In this document: one piece after another, positions 2,972-21,335 of the stretch
Position numbering within the stretch: position 1 is the first letter of the stretch
Layout of the letters: the number at the start of each line of letters is the position of its first letter
Source: a virus
Length of the DNA: 21,335 bases
Direction: 5' to 3' (one strand)
Virus record (IMG/VR): IMGVR_UViG_3300033388_002097
Span: 1 to 21,335 of that record
Notes under the pieces: generated by a model
Databases searched by the model: none
Told to the model about the DNA's origin: nothing
The model's input: only the letters and a program-made list of their open reading frames with translations
Program-made: the position numbers and the translations under genes

Positions 2972-4375
2972 ATGAATGCTCAAGAACTCCAGACCCAAGG
3001 AATGGGCGAAATGGGCAAGCAGCTAGCCGCTACCAAGTGGCGTCCTTTGGTTGAGTCCATTGAGGACAAAGGTGCTCGTGAACTCACCGCTGTGCTGCTC
3101 GAAAATGAAGCAAGGTACATCGCGAACATGGAAGAGGATGTGAAGATCCAAAACATTGGTTCCTTCGAGAAATTCGTCTTTCCTATCGTCCGCGCCGTGT
3201 TCCCTAACCTGATCGCCAAGGACATCGTCTCGGTCCAGCCTATGACGGGACCGACATCGTTGGTGTTCTATCTTGATGCTGTCTATGGTACCTCCAAGGG
3301 TACTGTCACCGCTGGTGACACCATGTTCAGCGCCCGTAAGGGTCACCTCGCCGACGACCAGTATTCTTCGGAAGCTGTCAATGGTGAGACTCTCCTTGCT
3401 GTGACATCTTCTAACGATCTGGTCATCCCCTCGTACACGCTTGCGTTTGGAAGTGCTCGTCCGGGTACGGTGGTCATTTCTGGTTGGGTACACGGAACCT
3501 CTCCTGTTGAGGCGTTCACCCTTCGTGACAATGGTGTGGGCAGCTTCACTGCTACCAACATCACGCTGGCCAGTGGTACGATCAACTACGCGACCGGCGT
3601 AATCGGTGACCTCACCTTCACCAGCACCGGTGCTATTGACGCCACAGCAATCCTCGTGAGCTACTACTACAACTCTGAAGGTAGCGCGAACATCCCAATC
3701 GTGGACATCAACCTGTCGAGCGTCCCAGTGCGGGCGATTCCTCACAAGTTGCGTGCCCGCTGGTCCGTCGAAGCGGCAACCAACCTCAAGGCGATCCATG
3801 GAATGGACGCTGAGAGTGAGCTGGTCGCCCTTCTGTCCGAGAAGATCCGTTGGGACATTGACCGTCGCGTCATCTCCGACCTCTTCACCATCGCGTCTGC
3901 TGGTTCCGTGACCTGGAACAAGCCTGCGCCAGCCGCTGTGTCGTACAACGATCACAAGCAGACCTTCATTGACGCACTCATTGAAGCAAGCAACCTGATC
4001 TTCCGTGCGACTCGTCGTGGAACTGGTAACTTCGTGGTCTGCGGTACCAACGTTGCCAACGTGGTCGAGAGCCTCTACGGCTTCCGTCCGCAAGCCGTCG
4101 CCGGTAACGGTGTGGTCTTCATCGGTACCCTCCAGGGCCGTTGGAGCATCTACAAGGATCCGTACCTCGACGCCGACACCTTCATGGTGGGTTGGAAGGG
4201 CAGCTCCTTCCTCGAAGCCGGATATGTGTTCGCGCCGTACGTGCCGCTGTACACCACTCCAACCTACGTTCTCGATGACATGCTCAACCGTAAGGGGATG
4301 ATGTCCCAGTACGGTGTGAAGGCCATCAACGGGGACTTCTACGCGACTGGTTCCATCACTTACACCGTGGTGTAA
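2972..4375 (+). CDS. major capsid protein (T4 gp23-like)
   Basis: This 467-residue shell protein follows the scaffold and has a strong ribosome site (AAGGAGGAGG). The hallmark IVSVQPMTGPTSLVFYLDA at about residues 85-103 matches the VQPM.GPT motif of T4 gp23-type HK97-fold capsids. The region RWSVEAATNLKAIHGMDAE and the C-terminal part also fit this family. The N-terminus is helical and may be a cleaved arm; L42-L43-E44 fits the (L/I)-x-E rule of gp21 proteases, though the following Asn is not the usual small residue. Residues about 150-236 form a beta-rich insertion with the motif GTINYATGVI, which also occurs in the sheath gene. A strong terminator follows. Confidence 0.93.
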   Translation: MNAQELQTQGMGEMGKQLAATKWRPLVESIEDKGARELTAVLLENEARYIANMEEDVKIQNIGSFEKFVFPIVRAVFPNLIAKDIVSVQPMTGPTSLVFYLDAVYGTSKGTVTAGDTMFSARKGHLADDQYSSEAVNGETLLAVTSSNDLVIPSYTLAFGSARPGTVVISGWVHGTSPVEAFTLRDNGVGSFTATNITLASGTINYATGVIGDLTFTSTGAIDATAILVSYYYNSEGSANIPIVDINLSSVPVRAIPHKLRARWSVEAATNLKAIHGMDAESELVALLSEKIRWDIDRRVISDLFTIASAGSVTWNKPAPAAVSYNDHKQTFIDALIEASNLIFRATRRGTGNFVVCGTNVANVVESLYGFRPQAVAGNGVVFIGTLQGRWSIYKDPYLDADTFMVGWKGSSFLEAGYVFAPYVPLYTTPTYVLDDMLNRKGMMSQYGVKAINGDFYATGSITYTVV

Positions 4376-8606: not shown

Positions 8607-10439
8607 ATGAGCGTATATGTTTCCCCCGGTGTGTACACCCGCGAAGTTGATCTTTCGCTGTATGTGCCCGCGTTGTCCACCACTATCGTAGGTATGATCG
8701 GCGTGTCCTCGAAGGGACCGACGAACGTACGTACCTACATCACCAACCAGCAACAGTTCATCGAGACCTTCGGTGCGCCTGACAGCTCGATTGGGTACGA
8801 GTCCTACGCGGCTCTCCAGTACCTGCGTCGTGGCCGTCAGCTCTGGTTCGTCCGTGTAGTCGGTGACGCGGCTGCTTCCGCTGCCCAGACCATCTCCTAC
8901 GGTACTGCTGCTACCGCTGAGAATCTTACCCCGACTCCCGCATTCGACGACACTACCAAGTCGTTCGTCCTGGCCGCTCCTGCCGCACTCGGCGACAGCG
9001 GTATCCAGCCTGGGTCTGTGACCGTCATCTTCACCATGAGCGATGACAGCCTTGAGACCTTCACCGACGACGGTGCTGGTGTCCTGACTGGCTCGGTCGA
9101 TGGCGCGGGTACGATTGTCTACGCCACAGGCGTGATCACGATGGCCTTCGGTACACTCGCTCCGAAGACTGCCAGTGCTGTGGATGCGGATACCACCTCC
9201 CTGTCAGACGCAGCCGAGTTTACGGCGCTCTCCGAGGGTGAGTGGGGCAACAACGTCTCGATCAGCATCGGCGCGGGTACCCTCGCCAGCACCGTGAAGA
9301 TCAACATCTTCATGGACGGTGTTGCGGTTGAGTCGTTCAACAACGTTGATCTCGATGACACGACTGGAAACACCCAGTACATCGAGACCAAGATCAACGA
9401 CGTGTCCGACTACGTGACCGTGGAACTCGATGTAGCGTTGGCCAGTGCTTCGACTGAGCTGCCTGCCACCGTCGCAACTGCGGTTGCCTTGGCCGGTGGT
9501 TCCACCGATGCGGGCAACGTGAGCGCAACCGAGATCAACGGTGTGGCCTGGGACGCTCTCCTGTCCTCACCCACCGGTCTCCAGCTCTTCGCTTCGCCGA
9601 GTGCGGTTGACATCAACCTGCTCGCTGCTCCTGGTTGGGCTGACGCCGCTGTCGTCAACCAGCTCATTCTGCTGGCCGAGACCAGAGCTGACTGTCTCGC
9701 CATCGTTGACCCGCCAGAGAACCTGCGCCCCTCCGAGGTCGTGGACTGGCACAACGCAACGGGAGACTACCTTGGACAGCACGCTGCGTTCAACAGCTCC
9801 TACGCTGCAACCTACTGGCCCTGGGTCAAGATCTATGACTCCTACAACGGGGCCTATGCCTGGACTCCTCCCTCGGGACACGCCTTGGCAGTGTTCGCTT
9901 ACACTGACCAGAGCACCGAGAGCTGGTTCGCTCCAGCCGGTCTGACCCGAGGTCGCGTGATCTCTGGTATCGACGTCGAGATGGGTGCCACTCCTGGTGA
10001 GATGGACCTCCTCTACGGCGACCAGAACTCCGTGAACCCCATCGCCAAGTTCACGAAGGATGGACTGGTCATCTGGGGCCAACGCACGCTGCAACGTGCG
10101 CCCACGGCTCTCGACCGGATCAACGTGCGCCGTCTGCTCTTGTATCTCCGTAAGGTGATCTCGACAGCCGTCCGCTACCTCGTGTTCGAGCCGAACGACG
10201 AAAAGACCTGGAGACTCTTCGGGCACCTCGTCATTCCGTTCCTCAACGACGTTACCCAGCGTCGTGGCTTGTACGACTTCCGCGTGAAGTGCGACGAGAC
10301 CACGAACACCCCTGCGGTGATCGACCGGAACGAGATGAACGCCCAGATCTTCCTGAAGCCCGTCAAGGCTGCGGAATTCATCCAGGTTGATCTCGTGATC
10401 ACCGCTACCGGAGCGAACTTCGACGAGATCCTCTACTAG
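8607..10439 (+). CDS. tail sheath protein
   Basis: This 610-residue protein has the typical phage contractile sheath start, SVYVSPGVYTREVDLS, followed by IVGMIGVSSKGPTNVRTYIT and FIETFG. It forms the helical sheath that contracts to drive the tube into the host. EGEWGNNVSISI at about residues 210-221 and the C-terminal half (GLVIWGQRTLQRAPTALDRI, then INVRRLLLYLRKVI) are family hallmarks. A beta-rich insertion at about residues 112-190 contains GTIVYATGVITMAF and resembles the insertion in the capsid protein of the same phage. The ribosome site is TGGAGGT. The length is within the range of large T4-like sheaths (T4 gp18 is of similar size). Confidence 0.95.
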   Translation: MSVYVSPGVYTREVDLSLYVPALSTTIVGMIGVSSKGPTNVRTYITNQQQFIETFGAPDSSIGYESYAALQYLRRGRQLWFVRVVGDAAASAAQTISYGTAATAENLTPTPAFDDTTKSFVLAAPAALGDSGIQPGSVTVIFTMSDDSLETFTDDGAGVLTGSVDGAGTIVYATGVITMAFGTLAPKTASAVDADTTSLSDAAEFTALSEGEWGNNVSISIGAGTLASTVKINIFMDGVAVESFNNVDLDDTTGNTQYIETKINDVSDYVTVELDVALASASTELPATVATAVALAGGSTDAGNVSATEINGVAWDALLSSPTGLQLFASPSAVDINLLAAPGWADAAVVNQLILLAETRADCLAIVDPPENLRPSEVVDWHNATGDYLGQHAAFNSSYAATYWPWVKIYDSYNGAYAWTPPSGHALAVFAYTDQSTESWFAPAGLTRGRVISGIDVEMGATPGEMDLLYGDQNSVNPIAKFTKDGLVIWGQRTLQRAPTALDRINVRRLLLYLRKVISTAVRYLVFEPNDEKTWRLFGHLVIPFLNDVTQRRGLYDFRVKCDETTNTPAVIDRNEMNAQIFLKPVKAAEFIQVDLVITATGANFDEILY

Positions 10440-18516: not shown

Positions 18517-19797
18517 GTGAACATCATCAAGCGCGATCTGCAAAACATGAACAACGGGCTGTCGGATTGGATGTTCCAAGAAGGACAGCACGCTCCTAGG
18601 CCACACCTACTACGTGGCGTTGTAGAGTACACCCGCGACCCCGAACGCAGGGGGCGTGTGCTTGTCCGTGTGGTAGAAGACGGCCCCGAGATGCAGGTGG
18701 CAAATACGAATGTGCCACGTACAGCCACCTTCGATCTCACGTGGTGCGATCCGCTCTTTCCCGCTGGAGCGGGCATGGGGTTCGGCTCCTTCACGGTGCC
18801 ACCTGTGGGGTCGCGGGTCTTTGTGCTCTATGAACGAGGTCACGCTGACCAGCCCGTCTACTTCGGTGGGTGGTACGCCAACTCTCCTCGTCAGCGTCGG
18901 TACGGTGTCACGAAAACCACGATAACACCACCCAATACGCAGCACGATGACGATCCTGGGTACAACGAGAACGGCAACCCAGGTGGCGACTTCCGCTACC
19001 CACCGAAACCCACACCCTACGGGGGTCACTGGACGGAGGAACAGGGGCCTGAGCTACCCCTAGAACTCAATGAGATGCTCGACCACACGCCTGACACCCA
19101 GATGTTCTTCAAGACGCTCAAGGGTGCTACAATGGTGGTCAAGGAGCGGGATGAAGTCGAGGAGTTCTTTCTCATCGACCGTCTCGGCTCTGAGCTGCGG
19201 TTCGAATCGAGTGTTGAAACCCAGGAGGACGGAGTCACCCGACGCGGGATGAACTCGGTCTCCCAACTAGAGCCTATGGGGTTGGATAACCTCATCGACC
19301 CGGCCCAGCGTGTATCGCTACTCACAGCGGCAGGCACCGGCATTGAAATGGAGTCAGGTAAACATGGGAACGATGGAATTCATATCCAAACTGCTCCAGC
19401 CAGCGAAGTTTCCAAAAACCGTGCTCGTGAGCTGTCGTCTACTCGAATGGCGGTTGAGCTTGACGAGGGAGAACAACGTCTCCGTATCCTCTTTTTGGAA
19501 GCAGGAGTTACCACAGGCGAACTCACGTTCGATGCCGTGTCGAACCGTATCGACCTTAGGGGACTCGATCATGTTCAAATCGAATCGGATCGTGCGATCC
19601 AACTTGAAGCCCCTCAAATCCGGATCCGAGGAGACCTAGAGATCGATGGCGAAATCAGACATATCGGCGGGGATAAGATGACCTTCGTGGACAACGACAC
19701 CACGCCATACGACTCCCAGATGCGTAACTTCTGGGACATCAGAGACAACGACGATTGGGATGGCTTCCGACGTGACGAAGATCCCGACAGGTGGTAG
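18517..19797 (+). CDS. central spike protein (gp5/gpV-like OB-fold, no lysozyme)
   Basis: The GTG start follows the hub stop immediately. Residues 31-120 form the OB-fold domain seen in gp5, VgrG and gpV: LLRGVVEYTRDPERRGRVLV, then WCDPLFPAGAGMGFGSFTVP, VGSRVFVLYERGHADQPVYF and GGW. A Pro/Gly-rich linker (about 125-170) follows. The C-terminal third has short alternating strands (NRIDLRGLDHVQIESDRAIQ, LEAPQIRIRGDLEIDG) typical of a trimeric triple-stranded beta-helix spike. It ends in a very acidic tail (DNDDWDGFRRDEDPDRW). T4 gp5 carries a lysozyme domain between these parts; none is visible here. It would pierce the outer envelope on contraction. Confidence 0.85.
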   Translation: MNIIKRDLQNMNNGLSDWMFQEGQHAPRPHLLRGVVEYTRDPERRGRVLVRVVEDGPEMQVANTNVPRTATFDLTWCDPLFPAGAGMGFGSFTVPPVGSRVFVLYERGHADQPVYFGGWYANSPRQRRYGVTKTTITPPNTQHDDDPGYNENGNPGGDFRYPPKPTPYGGHWTEEQGPELPLELNEMLDHTPDTQMFFKTLKGATMVVKERDEVEEFFLIDRLGSELRFESSVETQEDGVTRRGMNSVSQLEPMGLDNLIDPAQRVSLLTAAGTGIEMESGKHGNDGIHIQTAPASEVSKNRARELSSTRMAVELDEGEQRLRILFLEAGVTTGELTFDAVSNRIDLRGLDHVQIESDRAIQLEAPQIRIRGDLEIDGEIRHIGGDKMTFVDNDTTPYDSQMRNFWDIRDNDDWDGFRRDEDPDRW

Positions 19798-19799
19798 CA

Positions 19800-21335
19800 A
19801 TGGCTGACACAGACGTACCGGAAACTTCATATGGCCAGCAGCAAGACACTGGCCTAGGCGACCTTGGCAAAGAGCTGACTACGGCGACAGGTGACATCCG
19901 TGACCTGTACGCCTACTACCGATTCTCGGACCACGAGATGACCAGTGTCACGCTCAAGGGAAAGGTGTTCCAGAAGGAAGAGGTGTGGTTCGAAGGCCAT
20001 ATGGACTGGACCTTTAAGACATGCTTCTTCAAGGAGAAGTTCCACTTCGGCGTCGAGGGCGACCGGCTGGAAGAGGACACCCGCGAGACGGACGTCAACC
20101 AGGAACCGTTCCCCCCGTACGGCAACAACGGGCTGCACTTCACACAGTGTAAGTTCACCGAGAGCTTCGAGATCAAGGACCACTGTAACGTGGTCTTCCA
20201 CCAGTGTACCTTCGAGGCCGATGACCCCCTCGTGTTCGGCGACAACTGTCGAGTGGAGTTCATCGAGTGCGACTTCGAAGTCGCCCTGACGTTCGAAGAC
20301 TACTGTGACGTCAAGTTCCGTCGCTGTACGTTCGACGAGACCGATAGCCACTTCGTCAAGGCTACCAATAGCTGCAAGCTGTACGTGGACCAGTGTGACT
20401 TGAGCAACGCTCCCGAAGAGGTCTTCTTCGAGATCGAAACAGACTGTGTCTTGTCGATCAACAACAGCGATACGCTGACCGCCGATATGGCCAAGGCCAT
20501 CGTGGCCAAGAACAGCAGCCACGTCCGTGTCTACCAGATGACGAGCATCACGACTACCACAGGTGTGGCCATCACCCTGGAGAGTGGGAGCAAGTTCGAG
20601 GCCCATGAGGTCGGGACCATCAGCGCCGCGAACGCCAACTGCCTGGAGATCACCGACTCCGAGTTCTTCATGCGGGATGGGTCACTCATCTCTTCTGCGG
20701 TCGGCAAGGCTATGCTGCTGGATAACGCGACCATCCGCTGTGCGCTGGTGGAGACCATCAGCACGGGGCAGGGAACGTGCATCGACGCCACTGACTCACT
20801 AATCTATGTCAACGGATCCGTTTCGGTGACATGCGGGCAGGGTACCTGCCTCAAAGGGAGCAACGCGTCCTTCGAATTCAACGATGTCATCACGATTTCC
20901 TCAGGCCAGGGTACCTGTATGGATCTGTCTGGGAACGGTCGTTCCTATTTTAGGAATGTCAACAACGTCACGTCGGGCAACGGTACCTGCCTCATCATCG
21001 CCAAGAACCATGAGACCTACTTCAGCGACACCACCACGATCTCTTCGGGGTCGGGCATCGCTGTCAGCCTAGACACCGCTCGCTTCGAGGACATGGGTGG
21101 GACCGACATCACCGGAACGCTGGGAGGGATCGATGCAACCGATAGCCATATCCGTATCAACATCACCGGGAGCATCGTTGGTGGTGACACGGGCGTAGGC
21201 GTAGACCTAACGAACTGTGTCTACGACATCCGCGACGTGGTTACCATCTCTGGGAAGGGGGGGTTCTTCACCACCAACAGCAAGGGGATCCTGAACGCCG
21301 TCACCACTGTTGACGGTGGCCAAGGCGTTGGGGCA
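19800..21335 (+). CDS. cysteine-rich parallel beta-helix tail protein (partial, first 512 codons)
   Basis: The ATG at 19800 follows the spike stop by two bases, and the frame stays open to the right edge. Residues 1-110 are an N-terminal domain that may attach to the baseplate. Residues about 114-201 carry coils of roughly 20 residues with the pattern C-x-V-x-F-x-x-C-x-F: C129/C136, C150/C157, C169/C176, C192/C199. From about 230 to the edge there are at least 12 coils of 22-24 residues. Four are marked G(Q/N)GTC (323, 346, 369, 393), and related turns (GSGIA, GGID, GVGVD, GGFF) continue. This is a right-handed beta-helix architecture, as in tailspikes and fibre-like host-contact proteins. 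No catalytic residues can be assigned from the visible part. Confidence 0.8.
   Translation, partial: MADTDVPETSYGQQQDTGLGDLGKELTTATGDIRDLYAYYRFSDHEMTSVTLKGKVFQKEEVWFEGHMDWTFKTCFFKEKFHFGVEGDRLEEDTRETDVNQEPFPPYGNNGLHFTQCKFTESFEIKDHCNVVFHQCTFEADDPLVFGDNCRVEFIECDFEVALTFEDYCDVKFRRCTFDETDSHFVKATNSCKLYVDQCDLSNAPEEVFFEIETDCVLSINNSDTLTADMAKAIVAKNSSHVRVYQMTSITTTTGVAITLESGSKFEAHEVGTISAANANCLEITDSEFFMRDGSLISSAVGKAMLLDNATIRCALVETISTGQGTCIDATDSLIYVNGSVSVTCGQGTCLKGSNASFEFNDVITISSGQGTCMDLSGNGRSYFRNVNNVTSGNGTCLIIAKNHETYFSDTTTISSGSGIAVSLDTARFEDMGGTDITGTLGGIDATDSHIRINITGSIVGGDTGVGVDLTNCVYDIRDVVTISGKGGFFTTNSKGILNAVTTVDGGQGVGA

Follow-up and report, generated by a model that had tools for sequence, protein, structure and literature searches.

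Why should the head and the tail of one phage carry what appears to be the same domain? The question is raised by a stretch of 21,335 bases from an IMG/VR virus record (the window, by which we mean the whole of the DNA analysed), in which the T4-like virion genes of an uncultured phage are found. Two of these genes carry the domain. The first, at 2972..4375 on the + strand, encodes a major capsid protein of the gp23 type, 467 aa long (PF07068 Gp23, E 1.4e-67; PHROG 138, major head protein). At 229.2 bits against a Pfam gathering cut-off of 24.4, its membership of the gp23 type is secure. The second, at 8607..10439 on the same strand, encodes a 610-aa tail sheath protein of the gp18 type, which matches PF04984 (51.7 bits, cut-off 31.4) and PF17482 (59.3 bits, cut-off 26.9) above the gathering cut-offs and PHROG 23, tail sheath, at E 4e-98. 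Two other frames of the window may be recorded here. The product of 1474–2958 is a head maturation protease (PHROG 207 across residues 17–248) whose C-terminal half is long and acidic; to judge by its length and composition, it may combine a protease and a scaffold in one chain. The open-ended frame at 19791–21335 contains short repeat units resembling a beta-helix, and no PHROG match was found for it.

In the capsid protein a beta-rich module extends over residues 137–238 (3380..3685), the position of the gp23 insertion (I) domain. Within it lie a D-N-G-x-G turn (residues 186–190; 3527..3541) and the peptide GTINYATGVI (3575..3604). Among 23 aligned capsid modules D186 and G190 of the turn are invariant, and G188 is nearly so. 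The beta-rich module of the sheath extends over residues 105–200 (8919..9206), the position of domain I in T4 gp18. Alignments place in it a D-D-G-x-G turn (residues 154–158; 9066..9080), and comparison with the DNA of the capsid motif places the peptide GTIVYATGVI at 9108..9137. All of these features lie on the + strand.

Are the two modules related by descent? The initial annotation had claimed that 3419–3679 and 8940–9176 resemble one another. These coordinates correspond correctly to capsid residues 150–236 and sheath residues 112–190, and the homologous block defined by the profile match is slightly longer, from about 3416 to 3685 and from about 8922 to 9206. When only the two full proteins are compared, the local score is 79, against a maximum of 77 over 1000 shuffles. 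For the domains by themselves the score is 72 and the highest of 5000 shuffles 62, a margin that is small if taken alone. Likewise, the pairwise BLASTP E of 1e-5, obtained without composition correction, is suggestive only. We gathered relatives at 11 loci for the capsid and at 27 loci for the sheath. The HMM of the capsid domain matches the sheaths, and that of the sheath domain matches the capsids, in all close relatives, with E from about 1e-13 to 1e-6. The profile–profile comparison (hhalign) gives a P of 5e-15 across 72 columns. Searched against reversed-ORF decoys, a mixed seed HMM and an iterated HMM gave zero matches at E 0.001. The segment is present in both proteins of all close relatives where both genes could be compared. 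The claimed resemblance is thus confirmed, and highly significant, by profile. Since the profiles of the relatives decide the matter, the pairwise comparison alone being only suggestive, we conclude that capsid residues ~137–238 and sheath residues ~105–200 share ancestry.

What fold do they adopt? Two AlphaFold2 models were made from separate alignments, one of capsid copies only (pLDDT 85.7) and one of sheath copies only (pLDDT 86.5), and the structural ranking comprised 1000 re-aligned PDB chains. Both predicted models are beta-rich. Their top PDB match is identical, the P1 major capsid protein 9ukm_A, and it covers essentially the same range of that protein, residues 201–303 for the capsid model (Z 7.9) and residues 202–300 for the sheath model (Z 8.0). 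The strength of the match is moderate, with PDB TM-scores below 0.6, and Z values around 8 may also arise from an arrangement that is simply common. When compared with the predicted viral structures of BFVD, the sheath model matches two major capsid proteins of phages (E 8e-7 and 3e-4), and also one tail sheath (TM 0.76). By prediction, then, the capsid and sheath modules share one fold; neither of the two outcomes that the initial annotation had named as refuting it, placement in different folds or a lack of significant profile similarity, came about. It had also called the fold Ig-like. The non-phage structural neighbours of both models are mostly Ig V-type domains (rmsd 3.2–4.4), and the module reaches no Pfam Ig model. 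Because these V-type neighbours appear only at Z 5–6, the description is plausible rather than proven. That two unrelated beta-domains have converged on a common turn-and-hairpin motif is scarcely credible: beta-rich domains are frequent and the pairwise similarity by itself is modest (E 1e-5), but the profile similarity spans 72–75 columns (P 5e-15), independent alignments lead to the identical top structural match, and the reversed-ORF decoys give no match.

How close is the capsid copy to the domain of P1? The I-domain of P1 gp23 (PDB 9ukm) is beta-rich, protrudes outward from the capsid and touches the neighbouring capsomer (PMC12810830). Both models have it as their top match, along the entire length of the domain, and it shares with the capsid copy a DNGxG...LNYxxG pattern and a place within an HK97-fold capsid protein. 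On the other hand, the identity is only ~20%. The top PDB sequence match of the capsid profile is P1 gp23, residues 229–303 (E 0.027), and against the whole P1 genome this profile makes a single match (E 1.9e-5), in an open frame of 586 codons that we take as gene 23. The sheath profile has no sequence match to P1 gp23 in the PDB and none in the P1 genome; it is joined to P1 only through the fold match at Z 8.0.

The same place in the capsid is occupied by the module in the gp23 proteins of Bacillus phage SP-15, Listeria phage LIS04, GXN1, phiXF1 and Vibrio 1.031.O, and it is weakly detected in the capsids of Colly_1 and LR756511. Profiles did not detect it in the capsids of T4, phiM12, HTVC008M, S-RIM32 and RM378. 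The I-domain of T4 gp23/gp24 has an equivalent position on the scaffold, but no significant sequence match to T4 was obtained with any profile. We conclude that the capsid copy is the gp23 I-domain, a domain of the P1 kind that is common in gp23-type capsids, the T4 and cyanophage groups excepted.

Where does the sheath copy sit? Aligned with T4 gp18 and the sheaths of SP-15, LIS04 and GXN1, the module occupies the slot of T4 gp18 domain I, whose boundaries we take to be residues ~98–188. Domain I is the outermost lobe of T4 gp18 and lies at a distance from both the tube and the contraction contacts. It has the same position in the chain as the sheath module but shows no significant sequence match to it. 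By profile, neither T4 gp18 domain I nor the T4 capsid I-domain is matched as a sequence relative, although for gp18 this leaves room for a distant relation. That both are missing from the structural match lists speaks neither for nor against kinship. The sheaths of SP-15 and LIS04, ~47% identical over the matched remainder, have a clean empty site. Of the sheaths of cultured phages examined, none contains the module. In other uncultured phages there are sheaths with one to four copies, and in one distant uncultured phage (L202) the module is found in both capsid and sheath. The initial annotation had described both segments as inserted domains. For the sheath, with its empty site in relatives, the word is apt; it fits the capsid less well, since gp23 relatives commonly have the domain. 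The surface position that it assigned to both is supported, for the capsid by homology to the outward-facing I-domain of P1 gp23 (PMC12810830) and for the sheath by the domain I slot. Multiple copies occur as well: the sheath of one relative (L020:3458-5629) has two in tandem, and those of L035, L189, L126, L157 and L202 have several each.

Is the domain confined to capsids and sheaths? Searches of whole records gave matches in 12 of 14, with up to eight per record. Other carriers in the relatives of this phage are a Tail_P2_I baseplate protein, an NHL-repeat protein of ~1,700 aa, a protein of ~220 aa, and a fibre-like protein of 779 aa. The 22-copy mixed alignment was too divergent for degenerate patterns, and viral contigs were therefore scanned by peptide motif. 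Among the matches listed were gp6-type baseplate wedges, gp23 capsids, sheaths and PHROG 6128 proteins; 7 of the 120 motif ORFs, again among the matches listed, lacked a domain call over the motif. Because the scan selects GTIDYATG copies, its carrier counts are not prevalences. Two kinds of protein encountered in these searches deserve mention in their own right. One, the protein of ~1,700 aa, has a partial copy of the module and occurs in the relatives L069, L071, L073, L075 and L076, the L075 example having NHL repeats. The other, at L188:5458-8508 (− strand), is of the baseplate wedge type and combines an intein splicing domain with two copies of the module.

The signature of the family reads P-G-[ST]-V ... 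D-[DN]-G-x-G ... G-T-[IV]-[DN]-Y-x-T-G, followed by a Y in the final strand, and its carriers comprise gp23 capsids, sheaths, gp6 baseplate wedges, Tail_P2_I proteins, an NHL-repeat protein and PHROG 6128 proteins. No model in Pfam or NCBIfam describes the domain, and a literature search for the motif returned nothing relevant. Two existing families come near it. PHROG 6128, a phage protein of 1200 aa, contains the module up to six times among the matches listed, but it is a different, larger carrier protein, and we rejected it as the name of the domain's family since it is a container only. The C-terminal half of DUF2460 / TIGR02217 (the Rcc01695-type distal tail protein) matches family members repeatedly and weakly (E 0.006–0.07), but under every curated cut-off; it is a lead only. 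We conclude that both modules are members of a widespread, unnamed phage domain family that is used in many virion proteins.

If the family is so broadly distributed, was one module nevertheless copied into both head and tail, as the initial annotation proposed? The DNA match that it reported is present: 3575–3604 and 9108–9137 agree, ungapped, at 24 of 30 bases. Synonymous resampling with the proteins' own codon use gives an expectation of 22.5 ± 1.5 matches, and P(≥24) = 0.26. The match adds nothing, because the peptide GTINYATGVI/GTIVYATGVI, identical at 9 of 10 residues, already predicts it. Recent direct copying of DNA is rejected, such an identity being expected from the common peptide. 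Within genomes, capsid and sheath copies are not paired (intra- versus inter-genome likeness, p 0.54), and concerted evolution within genomes is unsupported by this test and by the distance correlation (r 0.23, p 0.09). A tree of 125 copies was built on 87 columns, and many of its forks are unresolved; in it the 11 capsid copies of the clade form one group (support 96/86). The clade's sheath copies are scattered over several groups, one of which adjoins copies from baseplate proteins of these phages. A duplication of the capsid module into the sheath within this lineage, or the reverse, would suit the motif identity and the occurrence of the domain in both proteins of all close relatives compared. 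We consider it very unlikely nonetheless: the shared peptide accounts for the first of these, no within-genome pairing is seen, and the supported capsid group stands apart from the several groups of sheath copies. With members of the family in six or more kinds of virion protein, the proposal of a single module copied into both is not supported. The evidence points instead to repeated reuse of the family, rather than to one head-to-tail copying, because these phages also carry related copies in further virion proteins.

How have the modules changed relative to their carriers? Across close relatives the mean identity of the capsid domain is 47%, against 89% for the rest of the protein; in the sheath the corresponding values are 40% and 74%. 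Two close pairs of capsids give dN/dS values of 0.35 in the domain versus 0.08 in the rest, and 0.32 versus 0.04. In other capsid pairs the gap is small (0.07 versus 0.03 for L008-L009; 0.10 versus 0.08 for L002-L003), and in sheath pairs there is little difference (0.14 versus 0.13; 0.09 versus 0.08). At synonymous sites several pairs have reached saturation; where dN/dS is estimable it is at most 0.35, and the domain is under purifying selection.

Might the modules simply be filler, kept as spacers at insertion-tolerant sites and having neither a binding nor a stabilising role? Their high divergence relative to the scaffold and the sheaths of SP-15 and LIS04, which do without the module, are what one would expect of spacers, and in Evseev et al. 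2022 the additional domains of the T4 sheath are held to be non-essential to sheath formation (PMC9230969). But purifying selection at the level just given, the near invariance of the signature residues and the retention of both copies in close relatives all speak for a constrained domain, and we regard filler as unlikely.

Could the modules instead bind sugars, as the initial annotation guessed? Two outward Ig-like modules that weakly bind carbohydrates of the host or of the surrounding matrix would enrich the phage near cells. The outward-facing homologue in P1 (PMC12810830), the strong divergence of both modules and the occurrence of the family in a fibre-like and an NHL-repeat protein are consistent with such an adhesin, and adhesion has been proposed by Evseev et al. 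2022 for additional Ig-like domains of sheaths (PMC9230969). Yet the module matches no lectin or carbohydrate-binding family above cut-off, and the solved homologue of P1 is described with contacts between capsomers. Moreover, the conserved positions look structural, being residues of the turn and the strands, and no conserved pocket was identified. Glycan binding is a candidate role with support in neither direction, and one that we would not favour.

The reading that we prefer, to which we assign a probability of about 0.75, joins these observations: one unnamed beta-rich family that acts as an I-domain clamp in the capsid and as an outward accessory domain in the sheath, and that has been reused repeatedly. 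By analogy with P1, the capsid copy would face outward, clamp capsomers together and expose fast-changing loops, although the contacts seen in P1 need not apply here. The sheath module may be an outward, change-tolerant accessory domain that was gained, or else one that SP-15-like relatives have lost. At the surface of the tail it might provide lateral stabilisation or weak adhesion.

How does this relate to domains described previously? Fraser et al. in 2006, as cited in PMC9230969, reportedly found Ig-like domains to be common to the virion proteins of many phages, and the present family resembles these in that one module type is reused across phage virion proteins. It is not, however, any named Ig family, because no Pfam or NCBIfam model matches it. 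The additional Ig-like sheath domains of Evseev et al. 2022, for which stability is proposed as well as adhesion, are in the available text likewise beta-sandwich accessory domains, placed on the sheath core and away from the tube; but that survey is structural and, in the same text, draws no sequence link from a sheath domain to the capsid I-domain (PMC9230969). As far as the literature available to us shows, that link is what the present analysis adds.

The capsid insertion domain and the outer lobe of the sheath, usually treated separately, are thereby joined by sequence, and a widespread domain family is defined that is unnamed in current Pfam and NCBIfam. With a profile of this family, regions that now carry no label could be annotated in capsids, sheaths and baseplate wedges, and in large phage proteins of unknown function as well. 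The role of outward accessory domains becomes testable on the head and the tail of the same phage. A bolder and rather unlikely extension is that one mobile beta-domain family, exchanged among virion proteins, supplies the exposed accessory domain of the major capsid protein, the sheath, the baseplate wedge, further baseplate proteins and fibre-like proteins in tailed phages at large, and that a single fast-evolving type of surface sets non-specific adhesion. If this were true, the head and the tail of the phage would be covered by one fast-evolving surface type.
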